In this document: piece by piece, positions 3,590-11,914 of the stretch
Numbering within the stretch: the stretch's first letter is position 1
How the letters are laid out: the number at the start of each line of letters is the position of its first letter
Source of the DNA: Acidimicrobiia bacterium
GTDB taxonomy: Bacteria > Actinomycetota > Acidimicrobiia > Acidimicrobiales > SZUA-35
Assembly: GCA_029857855.1 (NCBI GenBank)
Contig: JAOUGG010000008.1
Coordinates: 1 to 15,481, forward strand
DNA length: 15,481 nucleotides
Direction of reading: 5' to 3'
Translations under genes and position numbers: made by a program
The notes under the pieces: model-generated
Database searches by the model: none
What the model saw: the letters and a program-made list of their open reading frames with translations, nothing else
Told to the model about the DNA's origin: nothing

Positions 3590-4822
3590 ATGGAGATCGA
3601 GATCCGGCCGACCCGTCCCGACGAATACCGCACAGCCTGCAACACCATGTGTCGAGCCCTCCTCACCCCGCCGCCGAATGACGACCGGTGGGCGAAGAGC
3701 CTGCCGGCGTGGGAGCTCTCGATCTCCTATTCGGCCTGGGAAGGCGACGAATGTGTGGGCCACGCCGCCAACCTGCACGTCGAGACCACGGTGCCCGGTG
3801 GGGCCGCACTCGACACGGGGGCCGTGACCTGGGTCGGTGTGCTGACCACCCACGCCCGGCGAGGGGCGGGCACCGGCCTGATGCGGGCCCTCGTCGACGA
3901 TGCGGCCGAGCGGGGATGGCCGCTGCTCAGCCTCCGGGCCAGTGAGGCGACGATCTACCGTCGCTACGGCTTCGGTGTCGCCGGCGACTTCGCCGCCGTC
4001 GAGATCGACGCCCGGCGGGCTCGACCGGTGCGGGGCGCGGCGCCCGGGGCGATGCGGCTGTTGACGGCCGACGAGTTCCCCGCGGTCGTCGACGAGGTCT
4101 ACCGACGGTGCCTTGACCGGAGGCCGGGTCTGATCACGCGGCCCGAACCGTGGGCCGAACGCCACTTCCAGGCCGTCGGAGAAGGCAAGGAGAACGCGCT
4201 GGTGGCCGTGCACCTCGACGAGCGCGGCGAGCCCGATGGCTACGTGTACTACACGACCAGCTGGGCCGAGACTCTCGACCAAGGCGGAAGAGGGAAGATC
4301 CACGATGTCTTCGCCGTTTCCGACGACGTCGAGCTGGCGCTGTGGCGGTATCTGCTCACCATCGACCTGGTGGAGACGTGGACCTCGCCGGGTCGGCCGA
4401 TCGACGATCTGATCATCGAGGCCGTCGCCGACCGTCGGGCCCACCGGGTCACGTCGGTCATGGACGAACAGTGGCTGCGGCTGGTCGACGTCGACACCGC
4501 GTTGGCCGCTCGAACCTATTCACCCTCCGGTGGTGAGGGCATCGTCGTGGCCGTGGTCGACCCGATGATCGAAGCCAACAACGGGCGCTGGCACGTTGAC
4601 GGTTCCGGAGCCCGTCGAACCGACGAGCCGGCCGATCTGATCGCCGACATCGACGCGCTCTCCGCCCTCTACCTCGGCGGTATGTCGTGGCGGACCGAAG
4701 CCGCAGTCGGCCGGGTTCGCCCCGGTCCGTCCGTCGAGGACGCCCGCCTCCGGGGCGTTCTGGCCGGGGCCGACCACTTGTTTTCCGTCAAACCGCTGCC
4801 GTTCTGCGGCACCTTCTTCTGA
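3590..4822 (+). CDS. Eis-type GNAT family N-acetyltransferase
   Basis: 410-residue acetyltransferase built like mycobacterial Eis: an N-terminal GNAT domain (about 1-140), a second degenerate GNAT-like domain (about 150-290) and a C-terminal SCP2-like domain. Seen: the acetyl-CoA loop TTHARRGAGTGLMRALVDDA, then LRASEATIYRRYGFG, where Y123 matches the catalytic tyrosine of Eis (Tyr126 in M. tuberculosis), and a C-terminus FCGTFF whose terminal Phe carboxylate is the expected general base. Eis enzymes acetylate amines such as aminoglycosides, peptides or polyamines with acetyl-CoA; the substrate here is unknown. The frame is open upstream into the aminotransferase gene, but conserved sequence begins at this ATG (MEIEIRPTRPDEYR) and a TANNNT box sits just before it. 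Confidence 0.9.
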   Translation: MEIEIRPTRPDEYRTACNTMCRALLTPPPNDDRWAKSLPAWELSISYSAWEGDECVGHAANLHVETTVPGGAALDTGAVTWVGVLTTHARRGAGTGLMRALVDDAAERGWPLLSLRASEATIYRRYGFGVAGDFAAVEIDARRARPVRGAAPGAMRLLTADEFPAVVDEVYRRCLDRRPGLITRPEPWAERHFQAVGEGKENALVAVHLDERGEPDGYVYYTTSWAETLDQGGRGKIHDVFAVSDDVELALWRYLLTIDLVETWTSPGRPIDDLIIEAVADRRAHRVTSVMDEQWLRLVDVDTALAARTYSPSGGEGIVVAVVDPMIEANNGRWHVDGSGARRTDEPADLIADIDALSALYLGGMSWRTEAAVGRVRPGPSVEDARLRGVLAGADHLFSVKPLPFCGTFF

Positions 4823-4849
4823 AATGCCGTTGTCGTCTCCGGATCGTGG

Positions 4850-4879
4850 TGGTTGAATGGTGGCGATGACCTTCAACCA
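4850..4879 (+). promoter_or_regulatory. Hairpin 1 of the ilvB leader, over the leader-peptide start
   Basis: Arms TGGTTGAA (4850-4857) and TTCAACCA (4872-4879) pair perfectly. The helix continues inward, after one bulged T, with GGT (4859-4861) on ACC (4869-4871). The first leader ATG (4857-4859) lies in the 5' arm, while a second in-frame ATG (4866-4868) lies in the loop. Folding was judged by eye. Confidence 0.5.
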
Positions 4880-4931
4880 TCGTGCCCCTCGGGCACCGAA
4901 GAACATCGCCATCGACGTAGTACTTATGTAG
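4857..4931 (+). CDS. ilv leader peptide (24 codons)
   Basis: Short ORF just upstream of ilvB that ends in residues NIAIDVVLM followed by TAG. Its last nine codons include two Ile (ATC), two adjacent Val (GTA GTA) and one Leu (CTT). GTA and CTT are rarely used in this GC-rich window, as expected for codons meant to sense charged tRNA. A GGTGG stretch precedes the first ATG; an in-frame ATG at 4866 is an alternative start. The stop codon touches hairpin 3, and an intrinsic terminator follows 33 nt later. This is the classical arrangement of a branched-chain amino acid attenuator, known for ilvBNC in Corynebacterium glutamicum. The peptide itself need have no function beyond being translated. 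Confidence 0.75.
   Translation: MVAMTFNHRAPRAPKNIAIDVVLM
4882..4896 (+). promoter_or_regulatory. Hairpin 2 of the ilvB leader
   Basis: GTGCCC (4882-4887) and GGGCAC (4891-4896) form a perfect 6-bp stem with a 3-nt CTC loop inside the leader ORF, upstream of the Ile/Val/Leu codons. It could be a pause structure that a translating ribosome melts. Confidence 0.4.
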
Positions 4932-4963
4932 CGCACGCCGCTGCGAGTTCATGCTGCGTGCGC
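4931..4963 (+). promoter_or_regulatory. Hairpin 3 of the ilvB leader, at the leader-peptide stop
   Basis: GCGCACGC (4931-4938) and GCGTGCGC (4956-4963) are perfectly complementary, giving an 8-bp GC-rich stem with a 17-nt loop. The 5' arm begins at the last base of the leader stop codon, so a ribosome on the final codons would cover it. The 3' arm ends 1 nt before the terminator stem. Its exact role (pause, anti-antiterminator or other) is not decided by sequence, because I found no clear alternative partner for the terminator arm. Confidence 0.55.
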
Positions 4964-4964
4964 C

Positions 4965-4997
4965 AAGCCTCCCAAACCCGGGGGGCTTTTCCGTTTT
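4965..4997 (+). terminator. Intrinsic terminator (attenuator) before ilvB
   Basis: AAGCCTCCC (4965-4973) pairs with GGGGGGCTT (4980-4988), a 9-bp stem with one G-U pair and loop AAACCC. A T-rich tail TTTTCCGTTTTT follows at once. It lies about 43 bp before the ilvB ATG and directly after the leader ORF. It therefore most likely regulates entry into ilvBNC rather than simply ending the acetyltransferase transcript. Confidence 0.75.
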
Positions 4998-5039
4998 TCG
5001 CCCGAAGATGCCGAGCCCCGATCCACGAAGAGAAGATCC

Positions 5040-6895
<1,856 letters not shown>

Positions 6896-6899
<4 letters not shown>

Positions 6900-7444
6900 C
6901 CGCCAGCATCGTCGACAACCGCAAGCCCCAGGACCGCACCATCGTGGTCCTGGTCGAGAACAAGGCCGGCGTGCTGGCCCGGGTGGCCGACCTGTTCGCC
7001 CGCCGGGGCTACAACATCATCTCCCTCGCCGTGGCCCCGACCAACGACGATCGCTTCAGCCGTATCACGATCGTGGTCGACGTCGAATCGGCGCCACTCG
7101 ATCAGATCGTGAAGCAGCTGTTCAAGCTGATCAACGTGGTCGAGATCGCCGAACTGGCCCCTGAGCTGGCGGTCGAGCGTGAACTGCTCCTGGCCACAGT
7201 CCGGGCTCCTCAGGACACCCGCAGCCGCATCATCGAGCTGGTCGACGTGTTCGAGGGCAAGATCCTCGCCGTGTCGCCCGATCACCTCACCGTTAGCCTC
7301 GATGGCAGACCATCGAAGCTCGACGACTTCGAGGCGCTGCTGGAGGGATATTCGATCGTGGAGCTGCAACGTTCGGGTCGGATCGCACTCCCCAAAATCG
7401 GCCGGGACGTTCCCCGGCTGCGAGCCGTGGTCGAGGCCTCCTAG
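6896..7444 (+). CDS. ilvN: Acetolactate synthase small (regulatory) subunit
   Basis: Regulatory subunit that activates IlvB and confers valine feedback inhibition. It has 182 residues, the usual length for actinobacterial IlvN. An ACT domain occupies about residues 14-90 ([20 protein letters not shown], then [11 protein letters not shown], the expected effector-binding loop), followed by the C-terminal dimerisation/activation domain ([12 protein letters not shown] ... [19 protein letters not shown]). A GAGGGAG ribosome binding site lies 7 nt before the ATG, inside the end of ilvB, and the two genes overlap by 4 bp. The repeat tract ends 19 bp upstream, so this start depends on sequence just after the repeats. 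It is followed by ilvC after 54 bp. Confidence 0.96.
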
Positions 7445-7468: not shown

Positions 7469-8530
<1,062 letters not shown>

Positions 8531-9234: not shown

Positions 9235-10281
9235 TCAGCCGAACGACTCGAAACCCTGCAGCAAACCGGCGACGTTGTCGGCCAGCTCCTCGGTGGCGTA
9301 GCCACCTTCCATCACGAGAACGGTCGGCAGGTCGAGCGACGTCAGGCGGGTGCCGATGGTCGGATAGACCGCAGTCGGCAGTTTGAACGTGCTGATCGGA
9401 TCGTTCTCGAACGTGTCGACGCCGACCGAGACCACCAGCGCCTCGGGTTCGTGATCGCGCACCCAGCCGAGTGCACGGTCGAGTGTCGCCATCCATTCGC
9501 TTGGACCGGTGCCGAGCGGCAGCGGCAGATTGAGCGTGTGCCCGACGCCGTCGTCCTCGCCGGTCTCGTCGGCGAAGCCGGCGAAGTAGGGGTACTCCTG
9601 GAGCGGATCGGCGTGAATCGAGCAGAAGGCCACATCGGCCCGCCGGTAGAAGATCGACTGGGTGCCGTTGCCGTGGTGATAGTCGATGTCGAGCACGGCC
9701 ACCCGACCCAACCCGCGATTCCGGAGGGCCTGGGCGGCGATCGCCGCGTTGTTGAGGTAGCAGTAGCCACCGAATTGGCGCGGCCCGGCGTGATGACCGG
9801 GCGGCCGGCACAGGGCGAATGCCGCCGGGGATTGGTCTGATCTCCGCTCGGTGCGCTCCGCCACCAATCGCGCCGCGGTGTGGGCGGCAGCCGCGCTGAC
9901 GGCGGCCGAGTTCCAGGTGTCGGGTCCGACGGAGCAGTCGGCGGCGAACGAGTAGTAGCCGAGCTGGCCGTCCAAGCTGTCGGGGCGCACGTCACGCAGG
10001 CCGGTGGCCGGCCATGTGAATCCCATGGCCTGGGTTGCGCCCCGGCCCTCAGCGACCCAGCGATCCCAACAAGTGCGGAGAAACTCGACGTAGTCGCGAT
10101 CGTGGATCTGTTCGGCCAGCTCACGGTCGAAGCGATCCGGCTCGACGATGGCATGGGAGTCGGCCAGGCGTTCGGCGATCCGGACGGCGCGGATTGGACT
10201 TTCCCAGGACAGCACGAGCTGGCCACCGTCGAGCTCCAGCGCATGATGCAGGGTTTGGGAGGGGGAGTAGACGACGTCCAT
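9235..10281 (-). CDS. Acetylpolyamine amidohydrolase (histone deacetylase family)
   Basis: Zinc-dependent deacetylase of 348 residues, matching the bacterial acetylpolyamine amidohydrolase (APAH) subgroup of the HDAC superfamily, which removes acetyl groups from acetylputrescine, acetylcadaverine and similar compounds. Seen: the catalytic His pair in CRPPGHHAG (H163, H164); GGYCYLNNAAIAAQ; Zn ligands D200 and H202 in LDIDYHHGNGTQ and D289 in VSVGVDTFENDP; and the transition-state tyrosine Y328 in VMEGGY. The N-terminus (YSPSQTLHHALELDGGQLV) and the TWDRW-like segment CWDRWVAEG also resemble APAH. A GAGGAG site lies 4 nt before the ATG. It is 8 bp downstream of the DsbA-like gene, so they are probably co-transcribed. 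The exact acetylated substrate is inference. Confidence 0.9.
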   Translation of the reverse strand: MDVVYSPSQTLHHALELDGGQLVLSWESPIRAVRIAERLADSHAIVEPDRFDRELAEQIHDRDYVEFLRTCWDRWVAEGRGATQAMGFTWPATGLRDVRPDSLDGQLGYYSFAADCSVGPDTWNSAAVSAAAAHTAARLVAERTERRSDQSPAAFALCRPPGHHAGPRQFGGYCYLNNAAIAAQALRNRGLGRVAVLDIDYHHGNGTQSIFYRRADVAFCSIHADPLQEYPYFAGFADETGEDDGVGHTLNLPLPLGTGPSEWMATLDRALGWVRDHEPEALVVSVGVDTFENDPISTFKLPTAVYPTIGTRLTSLDLPTVLVMEGGYATEELADNVAGLLQGFESFG

Positions 10282-10289
10282 GGTGCTCC

Positions 10290-11024
10290 TCAGGGAGACT
10301 CAAAGCCGCCGATCTGGAAGCCATCGTCGGTGAACTCCACGACCTTGCCCCGGTTGATGCTGACCCAGTCCCGAGCGTTCAGATAGGTCTCGAACGACTT
10401 GGCGATCCGCTGCTCGTGGAACTTTGTCTTCGGCTGTTGGAGCTCGTAGACGTCGGGAAACTCGAGCCACGCCGTGACCGCCTGCCACAGCCGAAGGGCC
10501 GCGTCCCCGTCCGGCGGGTTGATGAGTACCGGACCGAACAGGCAGTGATCGCCGAACTCCGGGAAGAACAGCGTCGGTACCCCGTAGCCGCCGGCGTCGA
10601 CGACGCGTTGGTGATCCGACAGAACGTCGTCGTTGGTCGACGGGTCGGCGATCGCAGCCTCGACGACCCCGCCGTCGAGACCCATCTCCGCGAGCAGGGC
10701 GGCAGCCGTTTCCGGATCGTGCGCTTTGCGGCCCTCCTCGTGCAGCGCCCGACCGGCCGCCTCGTACCATCGGTCGACAAGCTCGGGATCGGATCGACCG
10801 AGCAGGGCCGCGATCCGCAAGAGTGACCAGCCGTAGCTCCACTCCCGCTCCCACGGGTGTTTCTTTCCCTCCCGCCGGTTGACCTCCTCGAGGCTGAAGA
10901 AACGCCAGTTGATCCTCAGGCCGTTCCGCTCCCGGACCCGGCGGATCCAGCGCGACGTCTGGTAGGCGTACGGGCACATGATGTCGAAGTGGAAGTCGAC
11001 GACGGAGACGCTCGGTGATGCCAT
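10290..11024 (-). CDS. DsbA-family / Rv2466c-like thioredoxin-fold protein
   Basis: 244-residue protein of the DsbA-like family that includes 2-hydroxychromene-2-carboxylate isomerases and the mycobacterial mycothiol-dependent nitroreductase Rv2466c. Seen: a thioredoxin-fold N-terminus VVDFHFDIMCPYAYQTSRWI with a single active-site cysteine (C17, CPYA instead of CxxC), a helical insert (about 60-145), then the cis-proline loop GYGVPTLFF and LFGPVLINPP, and the terminal helix ALRLWQAVTAWLEFPDVYELQ. No signal peptide, so cytosolic. The ~40-residue C-terminal extension (after TKFHEQR) is not in Rv2466c as I recall it. It is upstream in a pair with the amidohydrolase gene and divergent from a paralog at 11099. 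Substrate unknown; mycothiol use is inferred from the family only. Confidence 0.85.
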   Translation of the reverse strand: MASPSVSVVDFHFDIMCPYAYQTSRWIRRVRERNGLRINWRFFSLEEVNRREGKKHPWEREWSYGWSLLRIAALLGRSDPELVDRWYEAAGRALHEEGRKAHDPETAAALLAEMGLDGGVVEAAIADPSTNDDVLSDHQRVVDAGGYGVPTLFFPEFGDHCLFGPVLINPPDGDAALRLWQAVTAWLEFPDVYELQQPKTKFHEQRIAKSFETYLNARDWVSINRGKVVEFTDDGFQIGGFESP

Positions 11025-11070
11025 TCGTCCAGTAAACCCTGCTTCGTGTTCTCTCGCGAATTCCGCCGTC

Positions 11071-11093
11071 CCGGAACGATTGGAATATTCCGG
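11071..11093. promoter_or_regulatory. Palindromic AT-rich site between the divergent DsbA-like genes
   Basis: GGAATATTCC (11082-11091) is a perfect 10-bp palindrome, and CCGGAA (11071-11076) is inversely repeated as TTCCGG (11088-11093). It is the most AT-rich spot in this 74-bp divergent intergenic region and could be an operator or promoter element for both genes. I could not assign clear -10/-35 boxes. Confidence 0.3.
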
Positions 11094-11098
11094 GTTCG

Positions 11099-11914
11099 GT
11101 GGGGGATTCTGAACAGGTGACCGATACCAGGACCGAAGCCGCTCCGAATCCCGCCTCGTCGTCGTCGACCGGGTACGACATCGAATTCTTCTGGGACCCC
11201 GTCTGCCCTTTCGCCTGGATCACGTCGAGATGGGTCGAGCAGGTGGCCGCCCAACGAGACTTCTCCGTCGACTGGCGGTTCATTTCGCTGCGACTGCTGA
11301 ACAAGGACAAGGACTACGCCACCGAGTTCCCGCCCGAATACGAACAGGGCCACACGGCCGGGCTGCGCATGCTCAGGGTGGCGGCCGCCATCCGTGAACA
11401 GGAGGGACGCGACGCCCTCGGGCCCGTGGTCACCGCCTACGGCCGCAGCTACTGGGACAAGCCGAAGGGATCAGGCATGCGGTCCTACCTGAGTACGCCC
11501 GAGCACATCACCGAGGTGTTGGAGGCGGCCGGATTGTCGACCGGGTACGTGACCGCTCTCGACGACACGTCGTGGGACACCCAGCTCGATGCCGAAACCG
11601 AGCTCGCCCTCAGTCGCACCGGTCGCGACGTCGGCACCCCGATCATCACGTTCAAGCCCGACACACCGGAGGCCATCTCGTTCTTCGGCCCGGTCATCTC
11701 CCGGGTCCCCTCCGACGCGGACGCGGTTCGGCTGTGGGACGCCGTGACCACGCTCGCCACCTTCCCCGGTTTCGCCGAACTGAAGCGCAGCTTGCGCGAG
11801 GTTCCGCAGCTGACAATCCTCGGTGAACTGAGCGACGCACCACAACAGGAGGACTGGCAGGGCGGCCACCGTCGGGGTCACCTCCCGGGCGACCAGCCGT
11901 CCACCGAGGACTGA
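11099..11914 (+). CDS. Mycothiol-dependent nitroreductase-like DsbA-family protein (Rv2466c type)
   Basis: 271-residue thioredoxin-fold protein closer to Rv2466c than its neighbour is. Seen: YDIEFFWDPVCPFAWITSRW with one active-site cysteine (C36; CPFA, where Rv2466c has CPWC), SLRLLNKDKDY, the helical insert, the cis-proline region GRDVGTPIITF, then FFGPVISRVP and AVRLWDAVTTLATFPGFAELK, which match the family C-terminus. Family members in mycobacteria use mycothiol or mycoredoxin to reduce nitro compounds and protect against oxidative stress; the missing second cysteine may change the chemistry. The N-terminal ~25 residues are low-complexity, and a GTG at 11117 is an equally plausible start. 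It is divergent from the 10290-11024 paralog and ends 6 bp from the convergent glpD. Confidence 0.85.
   Translation: MGDSEQVTDTRTEAAPNPASSSSTGYDIEFFWDPVCPFAWITSRWVEQVAAQRDFSVDWRFISLRLLNKDKDYATEFPPEYEQGHTAGLRMLRVAAAIREQEGRDALGPVVTAYGRSYWDKPKGSGMRSYLSTPEHITEVLEAAGLSTGYVTALDDTSWDTQLDAETELALSRTGRDVGTPIITFKPDTPEAISFFGPVISRVPSDADAVRLWDAVTTLATFPGFAELKRSLREVPQLTILGELSDAPQQEDWQGGHRRGHLPGDQPSTED

Follow-up and report, generated by a model that had tools for sequence, protein, structure and literature searches.

A predicted ribosome-mediated attenuator with adjoining, non-overlapping hairpins precedes ilvBNC in an order of Actinomycetota

Our results support a model whereby ilvBNC of an Acidimicrobiia bacterium is very probably controlled by ribosome-mediated transcription attenuation, as predicted from the sequence of the leader region. 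In the window (the whole 15,481-nt stretch of contig JAOUGG010000008.1, assembly GCA_029857855.1, that was analysed), a gap of 217 bases separates the stop codon of an Eis-like acetyltransferase gene (TGA 4820-4822) from ilvB, and it contains, in this order, a promoter-like pair of hexamers, a leader ORF, a hairpin (P), a 1-nt spacer and an intrinsic terminator (T) (Table 1). A first-pass annotation made from the letters of the window had proposed a branched-chain amino acid (BCAA) attenuator here; the gap, the ORF and the positions of hairpin and terminator are all as it described. Its proposal gains support from the relatives, which might have lacked a leader ORF or a terminator: of the 140 distinct related regions, 122 keep the plan of leader ORF, P and T before ilvB, and where another gene lies downstream the sensor codons differ accordingly. 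Sensing by a ribosome on a BCAA leader is a known design; the departure from the textbook is that the two hairpins adjoin without sharing bases.

Table 1 Features of the ilvBNC leader region and the genes that follow it
Feature	Position	Strand	Basis
Putative promoter: -35-like TTGTCG 4830-4835, 17-nt spacer, -10-like TTGAAT 4853-4858	4830..4858	+	Sequence; relatives
Leader ORF MTFNHRAPRAPKNIAIDVVLM, then stop; 21 codons, probable start ATG 4866	4866..4931	+	ORF and position of the -10-like hexamer
Sensor codons GTA GTA CTT, positions -4, -3 and -2 from the stop	4917..4925	+	Codon counts in relatives
Hairpin P: 4931-4938 with 4956-4963, begins at the G of the UAG stop	4931..4963	+	Fold, covariation
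Intrinsic terminator T: 4965-4973 with 4980-4988, loop 4974-4979, T-rich tail 4989-4998	4965..4998	+	Terminator scan, covariation
ilvB, acetolactate synthase large subunit	5040..6899	+	NCBIfam NF005860, TIGR00118 above cut-off
ilvN, acetolactate synthase small subunit	6896..7444	+	NCBIfam NF008864, TIGR00119 above cut-off
ilvC, ketol-acid reductoisomerase	7499..8530	+	NCBIfam NF004017, TIGR00465 above cut-off

Results

Sample and distribution

Of 80 genomes searched, 72 had an ilvB match; upstream regions of ilvB were taken from 71 of these (G026 was left out) and from 80 named contigs, mostly Acidimicrobiia by title. Three of the 151 ilvB loci (L021, L029, L105) were dropped for having too little upstream sequence, and the remaining 148 gave the 140 distinct regions. 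A candidate was called in 136 of these (none in L056, L097, L121 and L143), and 14 more failed the filter, which left the 122 relatives used below; five of the 14 (L041, L071, L073, L075, L108) were also excluded by name, their scores being below the cut-off regardless. Identical regions are removed from this set while close relatives remain, and the genomes are mostly metagenome assemblies. Among regions that failed the filter, L071, L072, L073 and L075 carry a CTCGTAGTA leader with TAA stops and a different hairpin and terminator of the GGTCCCC...GGGGACC type, and may be another variant.

A covariance model of the element, R1, finds one site in the window's own genome, the one before ilvB. 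Across 396 genomes of the phylum it has matches in 102. Counted from the match list, these are the window's own genome, 43 of the order's 46 other genomes, 8 of 13 other members of the class and 50 of the 336 genomes that remain; many genomes have a second site. The attenuator is conserved across an order and probably more widely. A run-based search of 40 further loci of the phylum (L345-L384) gave nothing in 39, and inspection of 19 of these 40 together with three other loci showed BCAA leaders in several and none in others. Judging by the leader peptides, we take L346 to be Mycobacterium-like and L351 and L353 to be Streptomyces-like.

Elsewhere in the window, ilvB carries at its 3' end 2.9 copies of a perfect tandem repeat with a 36-bp unit that codes for 12 residues (6774-6876). 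Five copies are present in the sister genome L006, and one or two in five further members of the genus, among them L011 with a remnant only. Because copy number differs within the genus, the IlvB tail seems to be expanding. Farther on lie a minus-strand gene for a protein with a histone deacetylase domain (9235-10281, Pfam PF00850) and two divergent head-to-head genes for Rv2466c-like DSBA-fold proteins (10290-11914; Pfam name mycothiol-dependent nitroreductase).

Leader ORF and sensor codons

The first-pass annotation had read the leader as 24 codons from the in-frame ATG 4857 (MVAMTFNHRAPRAPKNIAIDVVLM, then stop). The ORF itself stands, with a probable change of start: TTGAAT overlaps ATG 4857 and lies 7 nt before ATG 4866, a placement that makes the 21-codon reading likelier. 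In 70 of the 122 relatives an in-frame start has a -10-like hexamer 6-8 nt ahead of it (mean 4.0 and maximum 9 in 50 shuffles), a pattern that was composed after viewing the same sequences and is missing from the other 52, and L006 retains the leader ORF, the hexamer and the ATG. A stricter sigma-70 scan gave no promoter site. Given the 6-8 nt between hexamer and start, the transcript probably begins at the first base of the leader ORF and is thus leaderless.

The ORF ends GAC GTA GTA CTT ATG TAG. Because the filter demands at least three BCAA codons, the BCAA richness of the ilvB leaders is not evidence in itself, and we turn to codon choice. In 120 of 122 relatives at least one of the last eight leader codons is GTA, most often codon -4 (97) or -3 (70). 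Its share of the Val codons is 64% in leaders, compared with 3.3% in the coding sequence of ilvB and 1% in seven genes of the window. In the last 24 leader bases GTA occurs 216 times in frame and 3 times out of frame, and selection therefore acts on the codon. Neither Leu nor Ile shows enrichment of its rare codons (CTA, TTA and ATA) in the ilvB leaders of the 122 relatives, and CTT and ATT are moderately enriched, so that valine looks like the main signal. Codon -2 encodes Leu, Val or Ile in 107 of the 122.

Two conserved hairpins, the first anchored at the stop codon

The fold of 4830-5040, which also contains hairpins inside the leader, is better than those of all 200 shuffles (z -4.2); P and T are the structures identified as conserved. 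The T stem comprises 9 pairs, followed by TTCCGTTTTT; a terminator scan of 4600-5200 returned six sites, four of them at T, against a shuffle mean of 0.5, in line with the 9-bp stem and T-rich tail reported before. An alignment of ilvB upstream regions, as the first-pass annotation had recommended, brought out covariation in both helices: in 36 aligned sequences, 12 of the 17 pairs of P and T have changed on both sides, which none of 500 shuffles equalled, and just 4 to 7 pairs remain when the partner is slid along.

That P starts at the last base of the stop codon and ends 1 nt before T had also been seen in the window, and relatives keep this arrangement. P begins inside the stop codon in 110 of 122, and the last base of the stop pairs with the foot of P and covaries with it (G-C with UAG, A-U with UGA). 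Since the first candidate calling picked the stop codon partly by hairpin position, we recounted with the stop chosen without regard to hairpins; P then starts in the stop codon in 108 of 121 cases, compared with 33 of 190 other stop triplets. The spacer between P and T is 0-4 nt in 119 of 122 relatives, and P end and T start are closely correlated (r2 0.86). A weak anticorrelation between T arm length and spacer (rho -0.32), which came from a test of pause spacing and arises partly by definition, was set aside as evidence.

One subgroup (L084, L089, L092, L104, L113) has the T arms CCCCTCG/CGAGGGG rather than CCTCCC/GGGAGG, resembling L351 and L353. As GGGAGG looks like a ribosome-binding site, T was also considered as a sequestered site of ilvB; this reading was rejected because the distance from T to the candidate ilvB start varies from 23 to about 300 nt, and because many ilvB genes have, as judged by eye, a GGAG-like site of their own.

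Ribosome position is predicted to determine whether P can form

Folding with a ribosome footprint at the sensor codons, likewise recommended in the first-pass annotation, showed that P forms at the stall and is lost at the stop with T unchanged. With an assumed reach of 13 nt from the first base of the A-site codon, the computed pair probability of P (mean of 122) is 0.96 with codon -4 in the A site, 0.72 with -3, 0.29 with -2 and 0.01 with the stop. T starts 24-49 nt past the first base of the stop codon, out of reach of a ribosome at the stop, and folds at equilibrium with a probability of about 0.97 at every ribosome position. Because P is occluded at the stop and formed at the stall while T lies beyond reach, P is the element toggled by the ribosome, and it is likely to be what favours read-through.

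In our model, transcription would start at or next to the leader start codon, as the promoter position suggests, and the leader would be translated at once. When valine is plentiful, the ribosome would come to rest at the UAG stop, where by computation P cannot form because its 5' arm, which begins in the stop codon, lies in the ribosome; T would then fold and transcription would end. When valyl-tRNA is short, the ribosome would stall at the GTA at -4 or -3 with its leading edge at about the start of P, a position in which P is computed to form. Folded P adjoining T would stop the lowest pairs of T from closing, and RNA polymerase would read on into ilvBNC. A terminator acts with its base far inside the RNA exit channel of the polymerase, and an adjacent folded hairpin would therefore hinder its closure. 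Given the constant probability of T, read-through rests wholly on this steric step, for which we see about even chances. The model as a whole, an attenuator that senses charged valine tRNA through GTA with Leu and Ile codons beside it and in which P blocks T sterically, seems to us somewhat more probable than not. In agreement with it, replacing LVVI by AAAA in the M. tuberculosis ilvB1 leader gave low, unresponsive expression, the direction that the model needs (PMC13236596). Other observations count against it: a stall at codon -2, the branched-chain codon of those 107 relatives, would already melt most of P; codon changes in the Streptomyces coelicolor ilvB leader are reported to have had no effect (Seliverstov 2005, PMC1262725); and antitermination in C. 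glutamicum is ascribed to a 3-nt overlap of two hairpins (PMC11857589).

P could instead be no more than a pause hairpin, keeping RNA polymerase at the 5' arm of T until the ribosome has caught up, with read-through on starvation arising from ribosome-polymerase contact or from timing. In 121 of 122 relatives the T 5' arm ends 8-14 nt after P does, which is near the spacing of hairpin-stabilised pauses. A pause hairpin is also invoked for C. glutamicum, where it is the first of three (PMC11857589). This account gives no reason for read-through when a stalled ribosome leaves both P and T free to fold, and pausing alone does not need a P that starts inside the stop codon; we regard it as unlikely.

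Stalling is not predicted to sequester the terminator arm

The textbook alternative of the trp type, in which stalling lets part of the leader or of the P region capture the T 5' arm (region 2:3) and thereby preempt T, is established for thr, leu and trp of E. coli, and our folding procedure reproduces it for these three (a stalled ribosome gives T 5' arm pairing of 0.39-0.71, one at the stop 0.00); his, a poor control, gave 0.31-0.37 and 0.14. The P of L346, moreover, takes in three T bases. In the 122 relatives, transcripts cut after the T 5' arm and stalled at -5, -4 or -3 show mean arm pairing of just 0.09, 0.04 and 0.07, with values above 0.5 in 0, 0 and 1, so that the earlier remark that no clear antiterminator could be seen extends to all of them at codon -4. 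Neither duplex energy with permuted partners nor footprint folding nor cut-transcript folding revealed a base-paired antiterminator in this set. For the T arms, pairing with the upstream sequence of the same region is no stronger than pairing with that of other species, and the same holds for ilvB-II-type pairing of the T 3' arm with its own P region (mean -10.6 kcal/mol, compared with -10.5 with T arms of other species). Because the T 5' arm stays unpaired, P and T do not compete for bases on stalling, and we consider the trp-type switch quite improbable here.

A ribosome at the stop raises the mean upstream pairing of the T 5' arm to 0.27 (above 0.5 in 11 of 122), compared with 0.04 when stalled, the reverse of the E. 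coli pattern and of what a base-paired switch with this polarity should give. This extra pairing may reflect no more than the freed 3' region of P; the steric proposal does not account for it, and it too counts against the model.

In part of the order, such elements with other codons precede cimA, leuA and leuB

A search upstream of cimA, leuA and leuB that used only P, T and the stop codon, and was thus blind to coding, found the element at 3 of 30 cimA loci, all with Ile runs, at 6 of 30 leuA loci, all with Leu runs, and at 10 of 30 leuB loci, with Val and Ile codons; at two further leuB loci P extends past the stop codon. Since leuB lies just upstream of cimA in many genomes, this position may explain the Ile codons of its leaders. 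Leader codon composition differs by downstream gene (label permutation 0/5000), in a comparison of small numbers in which the ilvB set was filtered for BCAA codons and the other three were unfiltered. Among 40 second or weaker R1 matches hand-picked for inspection, 19 lie before ilvB (by BLAST), 10 before cimA-like, 4 before leuB-like and 2 before leuA-like genes, the last three kinds having been called by NCBIfam for L187, L197 and L188, by a separate search for L189 and by eye from N-terminal sequence for the rest. Five (L203, L219, L220, L222, L223) received no gene assignment, and some of these are probably chance matches. In the window's family, the element was found before cimA at 1 of 14 loci fetched, before leuA at 0 of 17 and before leuB at 0 of 13; the window's own genome, an assembly that is 81% complete, has cimA and gave no match to leuA or leuB at the cut-offs used.

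The T arm sequence also tracks the controlled gene, being mostly CCTCCC before ilvB, GCCGCCC before cimA, CCGTCCAC before leuB and CCTCCTGC or CCCCCGCC before leuA, and T arm conservation in relatives exceeds what pairing alone would need.

The match between codon and product before cimA, leuA and leuB is hard to explain without ribosome sensing. Together with GTA being confined to the reading frame and the promoter-like site at the leader start, it makes it very improbable that P and T are constitutive tandem hairpins that strengthen termination of upstream transcription beside an incidental short ORF, even though transcription could enter from the acetyltransferase-like gene and double-adjacent hairpins have been named as terminators (PMC8355165). 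Least probable of all is a metabolite- or protein-binding, riboswitch-like RNA, for which ppGpp riboswitches reported to control ilvB in Firmicutes (PMC10272879) would be a precedent, since no Rfam family reaches its gathering threshold in the window (the best score is 21.1 bits for Phe_leader, with a threshold of 55) and the conserved parts are codons, a stop codon and two plain hairpins with variable loops.

Discussion

The textbook attenuator is a pair of RNA structures, each of which needs bases that the other also uses. The element described here works like the textbook attenuators yet fails their test of shared base pairing. Like E. coli thrL, leuL and trpL, it has a leader peptide, regulatory codons and an intrinsic terminator, and, as predicted from sequence, the leader ORF is conserved, its codons specify the end product and the terminator stands before the first gene. 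It differs from them in that their antiterminator sequesters the terminator 5' arm on stalling, and no antiterminator that would exclude T by shared pairing was found among the 122 relatives. Because these 122 regions have side-by-side hairpins that share no bases, a different way of stopping termination would be needed.

Among Actinomycetota, the Streptomyces-like leaders L351 and L353 come close to the window's element, having a BCAA leader peptide and a P that abuts T without a sequestered T arm; the difference is that their P 5' arm starts in the ORF, before the stop. In the Mycobacterium-like L346, GRRVGA stands between sensor codons and stop, the P 5' arm lies within the ORF and P shares three bases with T. 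M. tuberculosis ilvB1NC itself is similar in its LVVI sensor codons with GUA, in occlusion at the stop and in a stall that leads to antiterminator formation and read-through (PMC13236596). The C. glutamicum ilvBNC leader, an ilvB-II element, shares with the window's a leader peptide with the control codons CUU and GUA, antiterminator and terminator hairpins that adjoin, ilvBNC downstream and probably also a start codon no more than about one base from the 5' end of the transcript; in the ilvB-II motif the antiterminator arises when the terminator's right arm pairs with the loop of the hairpin before it (PMC11857589, PMC10272879). There, antiterminator and terminator overlap by GCC and a third hairpin, the anti-antiterminator, covers the leader (PMC11857589, PMC10272879), whereas in the window P starts in the stop codon and shares no base with T, and no anti-antiterminator was identified. 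One study reports leader peptides and terminators upstream of ilvB in Corynebacterium, Mycobacterium and Streptomyces, calls the mode of regulation not clear and also describes the LEU element, a conserved pseudoknot upstream of actinobacterial leuA (PMC1262725). We found no published account in the open-licence literature of an Acidimicrobi leader peptide or of leader-peptide transcription attenuation with leuA and cimA, and for attenuation of citramalate synthase by a leader peptide that literature gave only valine production in a methanogen.

We tentatively suggest that Actinomycetota have a distinct class of attenuator in which a non-overlapping antiterminator blocks T only inside RNA polymerase and which, in the window's order, is anchored in the stop codon as a direct switch and reused with exchanged codons for ilvB (Val), cimA (Ile), leuA (Leu) and leuB (Val/Ile). 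This suggestion is possible, if somewhat short of probable. The exchange of sensor codons among these four genes provides a natural series for testing the control of termination, and R1 can be used to annotate BCAA attenuation in a group known here mostly from metagenome assemblies. If true, such a distinct class would also bear on the unexplained ilvB leader of Streptomyces.
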